The notes beneath the pieces are model-generated. The model was not told the DNA's origin. It did not search any database and saw nothing but the letters and a program-made list of their open reading frames with translations. The position numbers and the translations under genes are program-made. This document shows positions 3,116 to 36,102 of a stretch of 36,593 bases of DNA, piece by piece. The number at the start of each line of letters is the position of its first letter. Positions within the stretch are counted from its first letter, which is position 1. Source of the DNA: a virus. The DNA lies in the IMG/VR virus record IMGVR_UViG_3300042934_000223, positions 1-36,593 of that record; one strand, written 5' to 3'.

Positions 3116-6100
3116 TATGAAATCCCCTTTCTAGCGTTCTCAGATATACCTACACGTTCTAGCTGGCGGTGTAGCTCCTTCAGTCCGCGGTCATCGGCGA
3201 CAAGCACACCCACATTAAGATTAATGGTGCTGCCTGCACCACTACCACCGCTGGAAGCTACAACTTGTGGCTGAAGCATATCAGCTAGGTCATTTGCTAC
3301 GGCCGCACTAAATGGTCGCATGAAGCCCTCGTTCTCCATTGGGATAACGGCCTCTCGGCGGTTCTTCTCCCCAACTTTGATGAACTGCTCTTGATCCACG
3401 ACACCCCCGCGTTCGAGGGCAAGTGCTCCCAAAAGTACAGGTGAAGCAAGACCCCCCGTACTAGCAGCTAAGGCAACACCGCCGACAACTACAGCGCCTA
3501 TAGCAATACCCGTAAGCAATGTTTTGTGGTCTCCGGCCCAGGCTTTGGCACTAGCATAACCATTGGCTACGTGTGTGTTAACCGAATCCATTGTACCTGA
3601 GATGGCTTCACCTGTAGCCTTGGCTACATTCTTGATAGCCGTCCAGGCTTTAGACGCCCAATCTGCTAAAGAGGTCAACATACCGGAAGCCCATGTTGCA
3701 GTAGCCGTAGCAATACCTTGATAGTATCCTTGTGTGGTTGCCCACGATGCACCAGCCCAGCCATTAGTTATATCCTGGATGGAGTTACCCAACTGGGAGA
3801 ACATAACACTAACACCATTGGCCCACGTAGCTGTGCTAAGGGAGGTACTGTTCAGGAATGTTGTCCACGTTGCGCCGGCCATGTTAGATACGGTAGCAAA
3901 TGTGGCAATTACGGCGTTACCCCAAGTAGCAAAGTTAGTTCCTACATTGGTACCCCAGTCTTTAACCGCTAAGGACGTAGCATTGACCCAAGTGGTTAAG
4001 GTCGCTTTCGTCTTGTCGGCCATTCCTGTCATAACTTTCTGTACAGCTTCAGACCAAATGGTGAAGTTAGCTGTTGTATTGGTCTTCCATGTAGAGAAAG
4101 CAGTTTGTACGTTCGTACTCCATGTATTGAAGGCTGTCTTAGTATTGGTTGACCATGTTGCAATGGCAGCCGCAACAGCTGTGGCCCATGCTCCGAAAGT
4201 TACTTGCACCGCAGTGCTCCACGTACTGAAACCCGCGCCCGCATTAGTAGCCCAAGTAGTGAATTGCGTTTGCGTATTTAAACGCCAAGTAGTCATGGCG
4301 CTAACTACGTCCGTAGACCAAGTAGTGAACTTCGCCTTCGTATCAGCTGCCCAGGTCGTAATGATGCTCTTAATGTCCGTCGACCATGTGTTAACAGTCG
4401 TCTTAACATCCTTAGCCCATGTAGTGAAACCCGTATTGACGTCTTTAAACCACGTAGCAAAGGCAGCAGCCGCAGCAGTCACAAACGTTCCTACACTAAC
4501 CACACCTGGTACGGTAAATCCTTGCGTAAGGGCATCGAGGGCATCCTTAGCAAAGGTAGCAAAAGAGGCAGCTACATTAATAGCCCAGGTGTCTATAGCT
4601 GTTTGCGTAGCATTCAATGCCTCCTCGAAAGCCTTGCCAAAGTTAGTAGCCCATTCCTTAATCGGGTTGATTCCATCCGAAGGGAAAAGTCCCAGTGAGG
4701 CAAGGAAAGCGGCCACGGCAGCTCCGACACTTTCGATAATAGGAATAGCCGGCAGCATAAACTTACCTAAGTCAGTTGCAAAGTCACCAAGAGCATCGAC
4801 TATAGTATCCCCAAGACCTTGGAAGCTAAGTTTCAACTTCGCCAACAAACTGTTAACGGTTTCCAATGGGAAGGTAATTACCGCAAAGTTCGGCGGTGGT
4901 GGTAGCTTCGGCCATTCGAAATCTTTAAACCAGTTCTTCATATTGGCAATGAATGGAGGAATCTTCCAGTCATCCCAGAAGTGGGAGAAATCGGCTTTGG
5001 GTACTTCAGTGGGCTTAGGTACTGCTGGTGTCTTGATATCATCAAGGCCTAGATCCAAATCCATACCAGGACCATTTCCGATATCATCTAACCCATCCTT
5101 TACATCATCTAGCTGCTCCGGAATTTGATATAGTTCATCGAAAGAGGCTACGAACTTATCTTTGATCTTCTTGGCAGCAGCCTTCGCAGCATCCCCATCT
5201 TTAGTAATATTAGTTCCGGTCTCTTTTAAGGTATCATTAAGACCTTCAACCATATCATTAAATTCGTCAGCGGCTTTAGCACCCTCCGTTAAATCTTCTA
5301 CCGGTAGGACCCCACTCGTGTCTACACCGCCAAACAAACTACCTAAAGATGACATCTTAGCCATCACCTTGTCAATCCATGCCGAAGCCGCCTTACTCGT
5401 AGTGATCAAATACAATAGAGCCGCAACGATCACCATGATAATGGCTACGATAGGATTTCGGGTAAGGATCAGCATAAGACCTTGAATAGCCTTCCCCAGA
5501 GTGGATACGGCCGTAGCTACAGCAGAACAAACAGCCCCTAGCCGAGTGATGCTCCATAAGAACATCAAGGCCTTAGCAGCTACCTGAGCCACAATTAAAC
5601 CGGCAATAGCGGCAGTAAGTACTTTTAACCACGGCCAAGCCTCCATGGCTCCGGCAGCTAGCTTAGCAAAGGCAGTAGCTATACTCGCAATGATTGGTAA
5701 GATAACACCCAAGCCATCTACGATCATACGGCCCAACTGTCTAAAGCCCGGACCTAAAGCACCCCATACAATTTGACCGGCTTTTGCCAAATCTCGGAAG
5801 CTAGCAATGATGTTCCTAATGGTCTGTTGCAATGCCTTCTCCGGAATGATTCCTTCAAAAGCACCTCCCAAACCCTTAGTGTTCATGTTTTCACGTGCTT
5901 TGTCGATTGTATCCCGCCAACCACGTAAAAACTTTCTTAAGGAATTCATAGGAGGCTCAAACAGCTTCTCACTGATGAACAACGTATCATCCTTGATCGT
6001 ATCCCACATACCACCCAAAGTATCCGCAATACGGTCAGCAGCCCCTTTGTATTGGTCCTGCAATCCTTTGAGAACGGCCTGCACCCCCGTATCACCGCTA

Positions 6101-17566: not shown

Positions 17567-17699
17567 ATGGGAGAGACAGGAAATTTCAATATATTTTAGG
17601 CTCGACTGAAACCGACCGAACATCTTCCAGGATAATCACTACAGTATTCTTAGTCTTCTTATTAGGCTACTTGTTTATGGGGTGTTTGGCAAGGCGGAG

Positions 17700-17741
17700 T
17701 GGGCCTATCAATCTAGTAAGCTAGCCCATTTTGATATTTTT
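17700..17741 (+). terminator. Hairpin with T-tract upstream of SASP gene
   Basis: TGGGC-C-TA pairs with TAGCCCA around a 14-nt loop and is followed by TTTTGATATTTTT. It looks like a factor-independent terminator in plus orientation, but no plus-strand gene precedes it. It may insulate the SASP gene from read-through. Confidence 0.45.
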
Positions 17742-17762
17742 AAAAATAGTTTTTGATTTTTG

Positions 17763-17792
17763 GTATAAATTTTAGCATTTAGGGTAATAATA
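17763..17792 (+). promoter_or_regulatory. Candidate forespore-type promoter of the SASP gene
   Basis: GTATA (17763-17767), 15 nt, then GGTAATAATA (17783-17792). The second element fits the remembered sigma-F type -10 pattern GGNRANAMTW exactly and the first fits GYWTA; spacing is one base shorter than usual. An alternative sigma-A reading is the extended -10 TGGTATAAAT at 17761-17770. Confidence 0.35.
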
Positions 17793-17834
17793 ATAAAGTA
17801 AGACAAATCAAATTCAAAGGAGTTGTTAGGCTAC

Positions 17835-18233
17835 ATGCCGAGACGTGGAGGTAGACATTACGTACTGGTTAAGGGTGCTGAACGTGCTATGGAGGCTTTC
17901 AAGATTGAAATTGCGAAAGACCTGGGGCTATTTCACAAAATTACCGAGGATGGGTCGTATAAAGGCCTCACGACGCTAGAAGTAGGTCAAATCGGTGGTG
18001 AAATGGTACGGAGAATGCAAGCTGCTGGCGAATTTGCAATTAAAGCACGCTTCGATATGGGAGAGCAACGGCTAATGCCCCCAGAAGTAATGCCAGACCC
18101 AAGAGCCGTACGCGAAGTTACGAATAATGGGAATCCGACATTGCATGTAACCGGAGACGTACACGATGCACCTGCTAGCGGACAACAATTTGCCAAGAAA
18201 GACGGCAAGCAAGACCAGCCACCAATTCACTGA
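17835..18233 (+). CDS. Small acid-soluble spore protein, alpha/beta type, with C-terminal extension
   Basis: A 132-residue protein starting MPRRGGRHYVLVKG. Residues 10-70 follow the alpha/beta SASP pattern: VKGAERAMEAFKIEIAKDLG corresponds to the family helix 1 with the EIA site cut by the germination protease, and GQIGGEMVRRMQAAGEFAI to the conserved GGEITKRLVxxAEQ helix 2. Host SASPs are about 60-75 residues. Here a 60-residue tail rich in Pro, Gly and Gln is added. SASPs coat spore DNA and protect it. AAAGGAG lies 12 nt before the ATG; an in-frame TTG at 17823 is too close to it. The gene stands alone between promoter and terminator. Confidence 0.88.
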   Translation: MPRRGGRHYVLVKGAERAMEAFKIEIAKDLGLFHKITEDGSYKGLTTLEVGQIGGEMVRRMQAAGEFAIKARFDMGEQRLMPPEVMPDPRAVREVTNNGNPTLHVTGDVHDAPASGQQFAKKDGKQDQPPIH

Positions 18234-20328: not shown

Positions 20329-20724
20329 CTATTCTGCTTTTTGTTCGTCACTTTCCGTTTGAACGGCAGGTACATTTTGTAATTTATACTGTTTTAATAC
20401 GTTGTGTACGTAATTATAGTTAGTTGACAATTCGATAGATATTTCTTTATTACTCTTACCTTTCAAAAACATCGCAATGATTAAATCCTTCTTAACGTTC
20501 TTTTCTTCAGCTACTAGCTCTATCTTATTCATGTTCACATAGTTAGATACTACATTATAGACGAAATTGTATCTAACATCCATTACTACCGAAATTTCCT
20601 TTACGTTCATTCCGATATCGAATAAGTTTTTCATCTTTTCTGACTTTGAGGTAGTTTCGTTCGAAGTGATAGCGGCGATCATTTTTTCAGTGACTTTCTT
20701 TTCGTTAGCGATATTCTTTTTCAT
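20329..20724 (-). CDS. Tandem helix-turn-helix protein, family member 1
   Basis: A 131-residue protein starting MKKNIANEKKV; ATG 20724 has AAAGG 9 nt upstream. It contains two similar HTH units. The first is SEKMKNLFDIGMNVKEISVV then RYNFVYNVVSNYV; the second is KKDLIIAMFLKGKSNKEISI then NYNYVHNVLKQY. The same double unit occurs in the 22619 protein and single units in the 21263 and 24927 proteins. It is probably a DNA-binding regulator. It is transcribed from its own class 1 promoter. The target is unknown; palindromes in the neighbouring spacers are candidates. Confidence 0.8.
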   Translation of the reverse strand: MKKNIANEKKVTEKMIAAITSNETTSKSEKMKNLFDIGMNVKEISVVMDVRYNFVYNVVSNYVNMNKIELVAEEKNVKKDLIIAMFLKGKSNKEISIELSTNYNYVHNVLKQYKLQNVPAVQTESDEQKAE

Positions 20725-20782
20725 AGTTATCATCCTTTTAATAGTATTTAGAAGATGTTTTTCTCATCTCTTCTATATATTT

Positions 20783-21218: not shown

Positions 21219-21262
21219 TTTCGACGGGGGCGAGGTTGTAATAATCTAAGGGAGTGTTGAAG

Positions 21263-21472
21263 ATGGCAGTAACAGGAGCAAAGTTGTCGAAGTCGGAACA
21301 AATTAGGAGAATGTTTGACGCGGGTATGACCGTGGCAGATATTGCTAACGTCATGCACATTCGTTATCAGTTCGCGTACAACGTGGTCTCCTATCACATC
21401 AAGAGCAAGGGGGGTGTAAGTGATGCTCCTCGGACTGATTATGATAGCAATGTTCGTCGGGATGTGTGTTAA
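21263..21472 (+). CDS. Single helix-turn-helix protein, family member 2
   Basis: A 69-residue protein starting MAVTGAKLSKSEQIRRMF. The ATG at 21263 follows GGGAG by 8 nt; in-frame GTG and TTG codons just before are less well placed. One HTH unit: SEQIRRMFDAGMTVADIANV then RYQFAYNVVSYHI. It is probably a small DNA-binding protein. The tail overlaps the next gene by 50 bp. Confidence 0.78.
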   Translation: MAVTGAKLSKSEQIRRMFDAGMTVADIANVMHIRYQFAYNVVSYHIKSKGGVSDAPRTDYDSNVRRDVC

Positions 21473-22561: not shown

Positions 22562-22618
22562 ATAAATATAGAAGGAAACAAACATTCCTTCAAATAAAAT
22601 ATAAAGGTGGAACACACA

Positions 22619-23086
22619 ATGCAAAAAGCTATGGAAATCAACGTTAAGACCCAACAGAAAGCCTCTGAGAAGATTCTCGCCGACACAACTACCAGCAAGT
22701 CCCAGAAAATGAAGGACCTGTTCGACCTGGGTTTCGAAGTTAAGACCATCTCAGAAACCATGCAAGTGCGGTACAACTTCGCCTACAACGTAATTTCCAA
22801 CTACGTCAACATGAATAAGATTGAATTGGTACAAACGGAGAAGTCCGGCAAGAAAGAACAAATCATTGCGCTCCACAAGGCCGGCAAGACGAACAAGGAG
22901 ATCAGCATTGAGCTCGCCACCAACTACAACTACGTGTTCAACGTTTTGAAAACCTACAAAGCATCCCTGCCTAAGCTCACCATCGACTTGACCAAAATCA
23001 ACATCGACAAAGAAGTTCACGCTGAAGACCCGGCAGAAGATCAAACAGAAGACCAAACAGAAGTACCTACAGAAGAAACCAAATAA
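22619..23086 (+). CDS. Tandem helix-turn-helix protein, family member 3
   Basis: A 155-residue protein starting MQKAMEINVKTQQK; ATG 22619 has AAAGGTGG 8 nt upstream. Two HTH units correspond one to one with those of the 20329 protein: SQKMKDLFDLGFEVKTISET then RYNFAYNVISNYV, and KKEQIIALHKAGKTNKEISI then NYNYVFNVLKTY. The C-terminal 35 residues are an acidic repeat (AEDQTEDQTEVPTEE). It is probably a DNA-binding regulator. It is a single-gene transcript ended at 23219-23243. It is more GC-rich in third positions than its paralogue. Confidence 0.82.
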   Translation: MQKAMEINVKTQQKASEKILADTTTSKSQKMKDLFDLGFEVKTISETMQVRYNFAYNVISNYVNMNKIELVQTEKSGKKEQIIALHKAGKTNKEISIELATNYNYVFNVLKTYKASLPKLTIDLTKINIDKEVHAEDPAEDQTEDQTEVPTEETK

Positions 23087-24526: not shown

Positions 24527-24555
24527 ATTATAACACACATCTTCAGAAATGTCAA
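24527..24555 (-). promoter_or_regulatory. Consensus sigma-A promoter (class 1)
   Basis: Minus strand TTGACA, 17 nt, TATAAT, both perfect, then ATAAGTATAGAAG. Drives the operon 24489-23405. Confidence 0.88.
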
Positions 24556-27390: not shown

Positions 27391-27454
27391 TGTTCCGCGC
27401 CTCCTAACCCAAATGTAATTGTTCATGTACTTATGCCAGAGGCACCAGATGGAG

Positions 27455-27510
27455 CGGCCACGATCGCGAGTAATCATGCTTCGCAGCCAACCCACACCTG
27501 GTACGTCGCT
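27455..27510 (-). repeat. Post-stop GTACCAGG element, copy B
   Basis: Starts 15 nt after the SpoIIID-like stop: GACGTACCAGGTGTGGG, then TTGGCTGCGAAGC and a CTCGCGATCG segment. ACCAG can pair with CTGGT downstream, and GCGA with TCGC inside. Confidence 0.42.
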
Positions 27511-27519
27511 TTTGATGTA

Positions 27520-27822
27520 TTATGCCCAAGTATCCCTGTAGTGATTAACTAAAGCAGCTTTCCGTTTGTTCCACTTCATCCTAGTGGCTTCTCCGCCACG
27601 CAAATGCATGATTGACTTATTGTATTCCAAGATAGATTCCACTTGAAGTGCTAAATCTGGTGCAATGTCCGGTAAGAGCTCGCGCATATCCTTGTGAACA
27701 GTTACACGGCTTACATTAAATTGTGTGGCTGCCTGTCTTAGTGTACAACGTGTAGCTACAATATGCTTTGCCACGGTAATTGTACGCACCTGCCGAATTT
27801 GCGATATTCCGCGCTTTTTCAT
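27520..27822 (-). CDS. SpoIIID-like sporulation transcription regulator
   Basis: A 100-residue protein starting MKKRGISQIRQVRTITVA, with GGGAGG upstream. It follows the Bacillus SpoIIID sequence closely in pattern: an IVATRCTLRQAATQFNVS helix, the recognition helix VSRVTVHKDM, then ELLPDIAPDLALQVESILEY and the signature KSIMHLRGGEATRMKW. SpoIIID is a mother-cell DNA-binding regulator of sporulation. The length is about that of the host protein (93), with a short N-terminal addition. It lies in the early operon with no own promoter seen. A phage role in host sporulation timing or as a private regulator is inferred. Confidence 0.9.
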   Translation of the reverse strand: MKKRGISQIRQVRTITVAKHIVATRCTLRQAATQFNVSRVTVHKDMRELLPDIAPDLALQVESILEYNKSIMHLRGGEATRMKWNKRKAALVNHYRDTWA

Positions 27823-27833
27823 GAGTATCCTCC

Positions 27834-27995
27834 CTAGTAGTGGTTTTCGTTGTGCATAAGGTCAAATACCTGTGCCGGAGTCGGCTTATCTTCTTTTGCG
27901 AGCTCCTCGGCATAGTGTTTGTCAAAAGCTGACTTGGTAGGTAACACGCGACCACACCAAACACAATAGAACGGATGATTCGTCTTTGAATCCAT
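27834..27995 (-). CDS. 53-residue zinc-finger miniprotein
   Basis: ATG 27995 follows AGGAGG by 8 nt. The protein starts MDSKTNHPFYCVWCGRVLP and has C-x2-C, then 12 residues and an H, as in a C2H2 finger; a second His is not at the usual place, but others lie near the C-terminus. The stop overlaps the SpoIIID-like ribosome binding site region, so the two are probably co-expressed. Confidence 0.75.
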   Translation of the reverse strand: MDSKTNHPFYCVWCGRVLPTKSAFDKHYAEELAKEDKPTPAQVFDLMHNENHY

Positions 27996-32425: not shown

Positions 32426-35044
32426 TCATTTAGCTTGGTCGCGTACTTGAGTTAGATCAATTAGAGGGGCTCCTGGTGTAGTGTTGCTTGATGTATGTCC
32501 GTCTGCTAGGTCAATCTCTTGTAGCTTGTCAGTGGCATATTTACGAATGCTCTCTGTGAACTTCCCATGATGTGCCTCATTTAAGAGGTATTCCAAGAAG
32601 CCTGTATTCGTTATGTTCAGACGCAAGCCGATCCAACATTCCGTCATTACTTTATTGACGTGTAATGTGTGGGTGGTTCTCGCCTTAGATAACTTGTGCT
32701 TCTTCTCGAGGTATCTGGATAGGTGTTCTACCTTCTTTTGTACAGAAGATTCACGGAAGCCTATCCATTGATCAAAGATGTAATTAACAAAGCTAGAAGG
32801 CGTACCACAACGAACAATCTTACCATCAGTCGCTACAGACTCTAAATCGAATGTCTCGAGGCAGTTCGTAAAGAAGTCTGCGGTAATATCATTCTCCTGT
32901 GTGTACGACAGCTTTTTCGCGTTGGCAGTTAAAGAATCACTAAACGCCTGATTAGCTACTAAGCGTCTAAGTCCTTCAAGTGCCCAATTAAAGATTCCCG
33001 AGTATTCAGTTCTAAGCTGCTCCATGATTTCAAACTTAGGTGTGGCACTTTGGGTAAAGTCTTGTTCGAATGGAACAAAGAGCATTCTCCGTAACCAGCC
33101 TTCTGATTTATCGCCAGTCTTGATATCATGGTTGGATGCAAATATGAATTTGGCGGTATTATTGAATGTAATTGGCGACTGATTTTTGACATCCGCAATA
33201 ATACGTCCTCCTGAGACGAGATTCTTGAAGTCGTCCGCAGCCCCACCCCTAAGGTATTCTGAACCTGCCTCGTTAACGATGTTGAGCACTTTTCCGACCA
33301 ACGACGAAGAGCCGAATCGACTAAATAGCGTGCGCATATTAACTGAATCGACGACGTCATATCCAAGTAATCCTTGGATGGTCTCGAGGAATAATGACTT
33401 ACCGTTGGCCCCTTCACCTTGGATAACAAGGGCCTTTTCAAAGCCCATATAAGGTATAAGGGAATAACCAATGAACTCTTGAAGGATGAGACGTGCTCCT
33501 TCATCCGGTAACCACTCCTTCAGACGCATATCCCACATAGGTGACTGAGCTTGAGGATTGTACTGGATTGGCAAAACGTAGGTTAAATGTGTTTCCGGAT
33601 CCCACGCATGGACTTCCCCAGTCTTCCAATCTAGCAGTTTCCCACCCGCCAGGGGGATATACTGAAATTGCGCTATAGTTTGCGTGTCCAAGTTGCGTGA
33701 GTTGACTTTCCAATAACGCTCTTGGGACCGCAGTTCTACAACCAAAGCGTTCGCTACATCCTTGTAATGTCGAATGGTTGTCCATGCCGGATTACCTCCA
33801 TACTTTTCATCACCCAAAGCATCACGGATATACACTTGGAAAGATCCATTACGGGTATCAATAGGTTCCCAAGGACCGTGCGTCTTCTGCGTCATCCATA
33901 CTACCGGATGCTCTGGATCGACCTTGACTACATAACCTTTGGATTCCATTAGATTGAGAACTACCTGAGCAATCTCTCCTGGGGCAAAGATGGCGGCTTT
34001 ATCGTCACCGGCTTTCCCTTTCTTATACTTGGAGGATTTAACTGCCTCGGATTCCCAGAAATGGTTCACCTTAGATTCAATAGCGAACTCATCTAACGGA
34101 GGATCACAAAATGTCTGATTATGTGCTTTCGCCATATGCATGATGTACTCTTTACCCATACCTCGGAAGTTAGCACAGAAACTACCAATAATACGAGTCA
34201 TCTGATTATCACGGTTACCCGAAGTTATTTTCTGTGTTAGTTCGCTTTCATCGACTTTACCGTCATCCTCTTGTTGTTTAACTTCCTTACCCTTGTATTC
34301 AACATTAGGCGGCTTTATGTCTAGGTCAATTCCTTCGTAATCAGAGAACTCACTCGCAAGTGTTTCTCGGGATACGATAATAGGTTTAACCTCGGCGAAC
34401 TCTTTCGAGGATGCAGGAGCAGACCCCCCTGGTGCTGGGCTCTTGGGTTGGTCTAGTCTTACCAGATCCAATAACCATTTAGGCGCCGGAGCACAATCGA
34501 TGTCCTCTGGAGAACTACCAACTTCCCACGTATAAAGACGTCCTGTATGATGTTTGGAAGGTGGCATTACTGTCTGTTGACCCTCACAGAGGATAGAGCA
34601 CTCTTCATGGATTCCCTCACCCGGATTGACAAATTTCTTTGTCGGTAATCCTACCGGGAAAGTATACAACAATCTCCGACCAGCTCCTGTAGAGAATTCC
34701 CATGTGTCCGGAACATCCCCTCCGGATATTTCTTCCAGCATATCTTCACCAGCATATCCGTCAATGTCAATGCCTACATAGCCGGAATTAGAGCCTAATG
34801 GAAGACCTACATTGAAATTAGGGAACTCTTTTGTCCAAGAACGAACCTGGTCCATAGTTGTTACTTCTTGTGTTCGCCACCCTTTAATAAGGGGTATCTT
34901 ACCGGCTTGCTGGCATGTTGCAATGTGCTTAGCGGAGTATCCCTTATGATCATGGGAGCATAAAGGTATGATAGGTAAGCCCATGTCAACATACATTTGC
35001 AAGGCCGTAAGAACGTTTTCACGATCTTTTTTGGTGTCGCTCAC
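32426..35044 (-). CDS. Primase-polymerase / SF3 helicase fusion
   Basis: An 872-residue protein. Residues 20-195 are a PrimPol domain: GWRTQEVTTMDQVRSW, catalytic GIDIDG (91-96) and the PSKHHTG histidines (162-168). Residues 200-280 are a linker. Residues 515-660 are a superfamily 3 helicase with Walker A GEGANGKS (543-550), Walker B-like KVLNIVNEAG (585-594) and LRRMLFVPF (651-659) as the arginine-finger area. The C-terminal region is probably winged-helix. It primes and unwinds phage DNA at the origin. It is the last gene of its operon. Confidence 0.93.
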   Translation of the reverse strand: MSDTKKDRENVLTALQMYVDMGLPIIPLCSHDHKGYSAKHIATCQQAGKIPLIKGWRTQEVTTMDQVRSWTKEFPNFNVGLPLGSNSGYVGIDIDGYAGEDMLEEISGGDVPDTWEFSTGAGRRLLYTFPVGLPTKKFVNPGEGIHEECSILCEGQQTVMPPSKHHTGRLYTWEVGSSPEDIDCAPAPKWLLDLVRLDQPKSPAPGGSAPASSKEFAEVKPIIVSRETLASEFSDYEGIDLDIKPPNVEYKGKEVKQQEDDGKVDESELTQKITSGNRDNQMTRIIGSFCANFRGMGKEYIMHMAKAHNQTFCDPPLDEFAIESKVNHFWESEAVKSSKYKKGKAGDDKAAIFAPGEIAQVVLNLMESKGYVVKVDPEHPVVWMTQKTHGPWEPIDTRNGSFQVYIRDALGDEKYGGNPAWTTIRHYKDVANALVVELRSQERYWKVNSRNLDTQTIAQFQYIPLAGGKLLDWKTGEVHAWDPETHLTYVLPIQYNPQAQSPMWDMRLKEWLPDEGARLILQEFIGYSLIPYMGFEKALVIQGEGANGKSLFLETIQGLLGYDVVDSVNMRTLFSRFGSSSLVGKVLNIVNEAGSEYLRGGAADDFKNLVSGGRIIADVKNQSPITFNNTAKFIFASNHDIKTGDKSEGWLRRMLFVPFEQDFTQSATPKFEIMEQLRTEYSGIFNWALEGLRRLVANQAFSDSLTANAKKLSYTQENDITADFFTNCLETFDLESVATDGKIVRCGTPSSFVNYIFDQWIGFRESSVQKKVEHLSRYLEKKHKLSKARTTHTLHVNKVMTECWIGLRLNITNTGFLEYLLNEAHHGKFTESIRKYATDKLQEIDLADGHTSSNTTPGAPLIDLTQVRDQAK

Positions 35045-35061: not shown

Positions 35062-36102
35062 TTAACTAAACTCCCACGTACACTCTTTTGCGGTCTTTGT
35101 CTCATGTAAATTCTTGAAGTTAGGGTGGCGTGGAAATCCGTCGGTTGTCTTTTCCATGAATGTCACACGTGCTACCTTACCTATATATGCTTCTTTGTTA
35201 CGGGATAATTCTTCACGCATTGCCTGGTTCATTCCTGAAGCATCACAGATATGAATAAGCTCACCGTCTACGTAAGCCCCCATCTTAACTGAGCCTATCC
35301 AATTTTTGTAGTAGTTCTCGGTTACCGGCACTTCAACTCCATTAATCTCTTGCCAGTAGGCCCAAGTCTCTATATTTTTACCTGTATACTCCCGAGTGGC
35401 TTGCACGTATCCGATAATAACTAGATCCGTTTCGTCACTCTGCTTGAATTTCATCCATTGCCACATAGGCTTCTTACCCATGATGTAAAGACTATCCAAC
35501 TTCTTAAGAACGCCCCCTTCGAATCCGTTATCCAACAGATTCTGCAAGAACGTACGTTTGTTATCTACCGTTACAGGCACTAAATGGATGTACTGTTCCA
35601 TATCAGTTCCCTTTACGTATGTGTTATAGAAGTACACAAGTAGATTACGCCGTTCTTTGTAAGTATTCTTGATAAGCCAGTTGGCTTTAGGTGAGCGCAG
35701 CATATCGAAGATGGTATAATGGATATACCCATTCAATTCCTGAAATGCTATTGCCCCTGCAGGTAATGGACCTGTTGCATGTGTTGCATATTGGCTTGTT
35801 TTGCCGGGATAGTGCAGTTCGCCGTCGAGGATAAGGTTATACATCGCAAGTTTACGAAAGAAGTCACGTAAATGCGGGAAATTATCGGTCTTCTCTACAT
35901 TGTCCGAACTGTAGAAACGATATCCGAGAACTTCATACCTACATCCGTCAATCTTTTCCTCCATTGCCCAATCAGGTGAGTCTAATAGCTTGTCCAACTT
36001 AGCTACGTTATTGGCATGCTCTTTATCGACCTTGCCAGGTTTCATGACTCCTACATGTTGAGCCAAGGAGGCGATTAATTCGGCTGATGGTTCAGTTGCC
36101 AT
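35062..36102 (-). CDS. ATP-dependent DNA ligase
   Basis: A 346-residue protein starting MATEPSAELIASLAQHVG, with AGGAGG upstream. The nucleotidyltransferase core has motif I EKIDGCR (nucleophile Lys50), LDGELHYPG as motif III, FEGGVLKK (motif IV) and WMKFK (motif V). A C-terminal OB-fold region follows (VARVTFMEKTTDGFPRHP). It seals nicks in phage replication. An RNA ligase is less likely because the motif order and the OB fold fit DNA ligases. In operon with the PrimPol-helicase. Confidence 0.9.
   Translation of the reverse strand: MATEPSAELIASLAQHVGVMKPGKVDKEHANNVAKLDKLLDSPDWAMEEKIDGCRYEVLGYRFYSSDNVEKTDNFPHLRDFFRKLAMYNLILDGELHYPGKTSQYATHATGPLPAGAIAFQELNGYIHYTIFDMLRSPKANWLIKNTYKERRNLLVYFYNTYVKGTDMEQYIHLVPVTVDNKRTFLQNLLDNGFEGGVLKKLDSLYIMGKKPMWQWMKFKQSDETDLVIIGYVQATREYTGKNIETWAYWQEINGVEVPVTENYYKNWIGSVKMGAYVDGELIHICDASGMNQAMREELSRNKEAYIGKVARVTFMEKTTDGFPRHPNFKNLHETKTAKECTWEFS

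Follow-up and report, generated by a model that had tools for sequence, protein, structure and literature searches.

Whether a phage that carries a protein of the SpoIIID family uses it to act on the sporulation programme of its host, or as a regulator of its own promoters, is the question raised by a small gene in the window studied here, that is, the whole of a linear, 36,593-base IMG/VR virus record. Terminase, portal, major capsid and tape measure proteins are encoded in this record, and contamination with host chromosome was rejected, as phage genes are found throughout and a sister phage keeps the gene order. The sister is a 65 kb IMG/VR contig (3300046513_000235, loci L002 and L145) which has most of the spoIIID region in common with the window, in order. 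The gene itself lies at 27520-27822 on the minus strand, with its ATG at 27822-27820, and its intact open reading frame encodes a 100-aa protein, MKKRGISQIRQVRTITVAKHIVATRCTLRQAATQFNVSRVTVHKDMRELLPDIAPDLALQVESILEYNKSIMHLRGGEATRMKWNKRKAALVNHYRDTWA. An earlier note on this DNA had read it as a SpoIIID homologue in a phage, and the family is borne out by PF12116, PHROG 11726 and the B. subtilis SpoIIID structure 2L0K. With the Pfam profile PF12116, residues 12-87 align to positions 6-81 of 82 and score 95.7 bits (cut-off 27, E 1.8e-27), this being the one match when the whole record is searched directly. PHROG 11726, “sporulation stage III protein D,” matches with an E-value of 3.5e-21, and 2L0K is the sole PDB sequence match (E 1.2e-23). 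The note had also asked whether another helix-turn-helix (HTH) family would win a profile search; the generic Pfam families HTH_11 and HTH_DeoR reach only E 0.006-0.01. The gene product is thus a SpoIIID-family protein that belongs to the phage and has diverged.

The predicted structure agrees with this placement. An AlphaFold model, built from an alignment of 20 relatives, has a mean pLDDT of 93.2 and five helices, and combines an HTH with a C-terminal helical extension as in 2L0K. Foldseek returns a single match at E ≤ 0.001, namely 2L0K (1.9e-5, TM 0.63/0.67), and a VIA structural alignment to the same entry gives a Z of 10.4 over 87 aligned residues with an rmsd of 6.5, the next row being a DeoR DNA-binding domain which covers the HTH part alone (Z 8.1). 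As the rmsd is large, the C-terminal extension, as modeled, seems to pack its helices differently from that of 2L0K or to be flexible. The product would therefore be a small HTH transcription factor with a C-terminal helical extension, predicted to bind DNA and probably acting as a monomer, as SpoIIID does.

The likeness to B. subtilis SpoIIID is considerable, with a family match over nearly the whole length, the same fold by model and most HTH residues identical; however, the phage protein is only ~55-61% identical to bacterial SpoIIID over the aligned core and falls below the equivalog cut-off. Against TIGR02844, the NCBI equivalog for sporulation SpoIIID, it scores 96.3 bits where 111.5 are needed, and the sister protein (94.4), that of viral record L003 (97.0) and that of Lysinibacillus phage LC76P1 (67.3) also stay below 111.5. 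The SpoIIIDs of Bacilli chromosomes are extremely conserved: among 78 such proteins, 52 columns are host-invariant, defined as at least 95% identical, and the window protein keeps 35 of these, short of the invariant residues of the sporulation equivalog. The earlier claim that the full SpoIIID pattern is present therefore stands in part. The HLRGGEAT signature is found letter for letter, but the recognition helix reads VSRVTVHKDM in the window protein and VSKSTVHKDL in 78/78 chromosomal proteins. In B. subtilis numbering, R24, S33, T36, V37, H38, K39, D40, R70 and GGEAT are kept, while K34R and S35V in the recognition helix, G31 to N, and R67M in the C-terminal basic region are among the changes. 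K34 and S35 never vary in the 78 host proteins; the window has RV at these positions and the sister SS, and R67M is common to both phages. In NMR work on SpoIIID with DNA, the recognition helix is reported to contact the major groove and the C-terminal extension the minor groove. The C-terminal tail of the window protein (KRKAALVNHYRDTWA) also departs from bacterial SpoIIID and is common to the sister phage, and where bacterial spoIIID occupies a sporulation locus of the chromosome, the gene here sits in a phage operon.

Recent capture from a host, for which the earlier note had proposed a phylogeny, is not borne out. The best chromosomal identities to the window protein are ~61% over the core, no copy above ~61% was found outside the sister phage, and the stem of the phage pair is long. 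Of 392 Paenibacillales genomes, 375 hold exactly one SpoIIID match; the matches listed belong to the diverged chromosomal type, and none of them is closer than ~58%. A tree of 74 rows unites the window protein with that of the sister (100/98) and keeps both out of the clade of Bacilli chromosomal copies (95/96), whereas in a tree of 44 rows, with the longest branches left out, this pair joins the clade (91/91) and its stem measures 1.34 changes per site. Holding the pair and the Bacilli rows as one clade gives p 0.037, near the limit, and the hypothesis that every viral copy goes back to one origin is rejected weakly (p 0.043). As the alignment has just ~80 columns, the placement of the pair is uncertain. 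The long stem seen in both trees points to an old acquisition or fast change. Searches for the wider lineage gave little: no GenBank phage holds DNA nearly identical to positions 1-24000 of the window, the primase recovered from viral contigs just the sister and one distant match, and in 296 Paenibacillales genomes it found only distant matches (≤50% identity over part of the protein) that could have served as prophage relatives. Relatives of the terminase were found in archaeal and actinobacterial phages.

The genome setting is one of replication genes. All open reading frames between 25918 and 36374 lie on the minus strand and most are common to the sister; assigned members of the cluster are an ATP-dependent DNA ligase (35062-36102; PF01068 E 1.5e-17, PHROG 114) and a Prim-Pol/P4-type primase-helicase (32426-35044; PF09250 E 1.5e-26, PHROG 1156 E 9e-71). 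The gene thus lies in a same-strand cluster with replication genes, and since this minus-strand block includes the ligase and the primase, the earlier note's label of “early operon” seems reasonable from gene content. Among sigma-A-type promoters on the right side of the window, the best two, at 24555 and 22483 on the minus strand, are away from spoIIID. No sigma-E-like promoter was found directly before the gene, the only pattern match being at 34970 on the plus strand; such patterns count for little as evidence. Three related small HTH proteins are encoded at 20329-20733 (-), 21254-21472 (+) and 22607-23086 (+), near long intergenic regions in which sigma-A promoters come close to consensus. 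For two of these proteins Cbp1, which binds CRISPR repeats in archaea, is a weak match (E ~1e-8, far below cut-off); the sister phage encodes a 388-aa protein with HTH repeats (L145 7074-8240). A 464-aa reading frame at 3734-5128 (+), antisense inside the tape-measure gene, is most likely a by-product of tape-measure composition and not a gene.

The spoIIID-like gene is maintained in the phage pair. The sister protein is 69% identical and encoded at the same locus, and a dN/dS of 0.22 argues that the gene is under purifying selection; neither phage shows damage to its reading frame, ribosome-binding site or motif. The corresponding values are 94% identity and 0.047 for the primase. In the window a GGGAGG ribosome-binding site (27829-27834, minus strand) stands 6-7 bases before the ATG, and an AG-rich site precedes ATACTCATG in both phages. 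A 53-aa reading frame lies immediately upstream (27834-27995, minus strand), with a weak C2H2 zinc-finger-like match (E 0.015), and is apparently absent from the sister. Its stop overlaps the GGGAGG site, and translation of spoIIID may thus be coupled to it in the window. On the other side, directly 3' of the spoIIID stop and presumably in the same transcription unit, is an apparently non-coding hairpin element of ~125 bases (27395-27519, minus strand), which lies before the next ribosome-binding site. It is almost identical in the sister, while the flanking genes are just ~57-71% identical. A frame across it is broken by indels and a stop, and all substitutions keep the predicted long hairpin; its folding energy is unexceptional (z -1.25). 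No Rfam family matches the element, and among viral contigs its 25-base core was found in the sister only. Possible roles are those of a regulatory RNA or of an operator.

A second sporulation-type gene accompanies spoIIID. The small acid-soluble spore protein (SASP) that the earlier note had placed in the same phage is genuine, an alpha/beta-type protein with a long C-terminal extension encoded at 17835-18233 on the plus strand (ATG at 17835; PF00269 51.1 bits against 22, E 1.3e-13). It is 57% identical over 119 aa to the SASPs of B. subtilis phages BSP7 and BSTP5/8/10/12, and has its long extension in common with proteins of Bacillus phages. In those phages the gene has the same place beside the terminase genes, on the opposite strand, and in the BSTP10 stretch examined no window protein other than SASP finds a match. 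The two SASPs of the phage pair are 97% identical (dN/dS 0.018), and the ~160 bases upstream (17674-17834, plus strand) are also almost identical. This region holds GTATA-N-AATAATA, a sigma-G-like promoter with one mismatch, a match for which we roughly estimate a ~10-20% chance in so AT-rich a stretch. The TAAGACAAAT site before SASP is conserved in the sister, a conservation that carries no weight because the whole surrounding stretch is equally conserved. The sister further encodes a 311-aa sigma factor (L145 4828-5763, minus strand) with a region 2 that most resembles that of SigG/SigF (SigG models E ~1.6e-12; PDB 1L0O 7.5e-11). This gene sits beyond the part that matches the right end of the window, which stops before that position. 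Searches for tyrosine integrases and serine recombinases gave no match in either phage, with the reservation that neither record need be complete.

Phage spoIIID has already been catalogued, and the window gene is a further member, not the first. spoIIID (K06283) is among the 31 phage-carried sporulation homologues, checked for viral origin, in Table 1 of Schwartz 2023, and these homologues, spoIIID included, are enriched in phages of spore-formers (PMC10294663). PHROG 11726 is filed under host takeover, and a 2025 review repeats phage spoIIID as “not validated” (PMC12713726). The window gene is of the same kind as these copies from phages predicted to infect spore-formers, but the window pair is diverged from the other phage copies and also carries SASP. 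An alignment-based scan of viral contigs yielded 36 records with SpoIIID, of up to 299 kb and with highly varied neighbors; phage SpoIIIDs stand beside replication or regulatory genes of various kinds. Among 30 SpoIIID-bearing records, 11 have an integrase, and SASP and SpoIIID occur together in two, the window pair. In L003 and L025 the genes next to SpoIIID are related to each other, that of L003 being a weak match to sigma region 4; the gene directly after SpoIIID in L036 encodes a sigma factor. The only cultured isolate with a homologue among 50,697 GenBank phage records is Lysinibacillus phage LC76P1, whose WAX16646.1 is annotated as a “hypothetical protein.” It belongs to the SpoIIID family and comes from a phage of known host; however, it is just 32% identical to the window protein, its genome is 165 kb, and no SASP or Sigma70 region-2 match was found in it.

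Several fecal “Bacteriophage sp.” records, as well as L017 and L031, were rejected as sources of phage SpoIIID on account of ordinary chromosomal neighbors. Read from sequence, the neighbors in L004, L009, L014, L017 and L031, a set made up of fecal scaffolds of this sort and IMG/VR contigs, are chromosomal in kind (CutC-like, TrkH-like transporter, M23 peptidase), and the SpoIIID of L014, which has the M23 peptidase neighbor, clusters with chromosomal copies of the Limnochordia type. Counts of phage-borne spoIIID that draw on records of this kind may thus be inflated. The SpoIIID of one genome bin labeled Deltaproteobacteria (L104) falls with those of Limnochordaceae, probably through a mistake in binning or naming.

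What, then, would the phage protein do? The reading we tentatively place first, at somewhat short of even chances, is that it misdirects mother-cell transcription in the host and blocks completion of the spore. The protein would be made together with the replication genes, probably early and most likely by host sigma-A-type transcription, and would thus be present without Spo0A, sigma-E or mother-cell compartmentation. It could then occupy SpoIIID-type sites on the host chromosome out of time and place, so that mother-cell genes would be mis-repressed or mis-activated and an infected cell entering sporulation would complete no spore. In favor of such interference are the retained HTH residues and R70-G-G-E-A-T, the same locus in a second phage with selection acting on it, a SASP in both phages, the SigF/SigG-like sigma factor of the sister and the enrichment of spoIIID among phages whose hosts form spores (PMC10294663). 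The literature that we found holds no functional tests of phage SpoIIID; of the sporulation regulators borne by phages, sigma factors alone were found to have been tested. When such factors were induced in B. subtilis, spore yield fell by 99% for one 62% identical to SigF, by ~33% to >50% for two at 27-32% identity, and by none at 24%, the effect of these SigF/SigG-like factors tracking similarity to the host protein (Schwartz 2022; PMC9429907). ELDg169 and Goe3 g157 from that study are, like the window protein, host-type sporulation regulators used by a phage, and there spore loss was measured, but they are sigma factors of the forespore line, whereas the window protein is by family a DNA-binding regulator of the mother-cell type. 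By this yardstick, an identity of ~55-61% to host SpoIIID could still allow host sites to be engaged, though the altered recognition helix calls for caution.

That alteration leads to a close rival, which we hold to be only slightly less probable: a SpoIIID-descended regulator dedicated to the promoters of the phage itself, for example in an early-to-late switch, with or without a phage sigma factor, any effect on sporulation being incidental. The changes at K34/S35, where the two phages also differ from each other, together with R67M would be explained by altered DNA specificity no less well than by mimicry, and the score below the TIGR02844 cut-off also speaks against host interference. A further point against it is that the sigma-E and sigma-K promoters on which host SpoIIID acts are not active while the infected cell is vegetative. 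A dedicated phage regulator would suit the long stem, the varied replication and regulatory neighbors with sigma-related genes beside SpoIIID in L003 and L036 and a related gene in L025, and the highly conserved non-coding element that follows spoIIID; a Sigma70 region-2 protein is found in 14 of the 30 phage records with SpoIIID, a raw rate uncorrected for background. Against it, the SpoIIID consensus, which we take to be WWRRACARNY and GGACAAG, is enriched in neither phage: the window has 31 matches where 23.8 are expected (sd 4.4; 6 of 100 shuffles reach 31, not significant) and L002 has 8 where 11.6 are expected. Changed specificity would escape this search, so the counts neither show nor exclude phage targets. 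In addition, a generic regulator would not need the enrichment of SpoIIID in phages of spore-formers (PMC10294663).

The company of SASP invites a further reading, namely that SASP, a sporulation-type sigma factor and SpoIIID together time gene expression or protection of the DNA while the phage genome is caught in a sporulating cell, and so favor carriage of the phage in the spore over a block to spore formation. The co-occurrence of SASP and SpoIIID in both phages, the very strong purifying selection on SASP, the near-identical upstream bases with their sigma-G-like match and the sigma factor of the sister are consistent with this. However, the two work in different compartments, SpoIIID in the mother cell and SASP in the forespore, and thus need not share one programme. 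None of the other 28 SpoIIID-bearing records has a SASP, the promoter match could be due to chance at the rough rate given above, and an integrase was found in neither phage, incomplete as the records may be; we thus regard such a survival function as quite improbable. Least credible of all, and very unlikely, is a passenger gene that is being lost and has no present function. Its dN/dS exceeds that of the primase and of SASP, but 0.22 is still purifying selection, and the intact frame, ribosome-binding site and motif in both phages speak against decay.

Sporulation is both a state of dormancy and a defense against phages. A phage that bears SASP, a sister with a sporulation-type sigma factor and the cultured LC76P1 would allow us to ask whether phages also target the mother-cell branch of this programme. 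A broader view, which we consider unlikely, is that some phages of spore-formers carry a small sporulation kit. It would comprise a mother-cell regulator of the SpoIIID type together with SASP and, for the sister at least, a sigma factor of the SigF/SigG type, and would redirect the spore programme of the infected host or enable the phage genomes to be carried in spores. Added interest comes from the clean phage context with SASP, from the sigma factor of the sister, and from a cultured phage in which the gene could be removed. Even if phage SpoIIID ran phage promoters only, it would still be a developmental regulator re-used by a virus.
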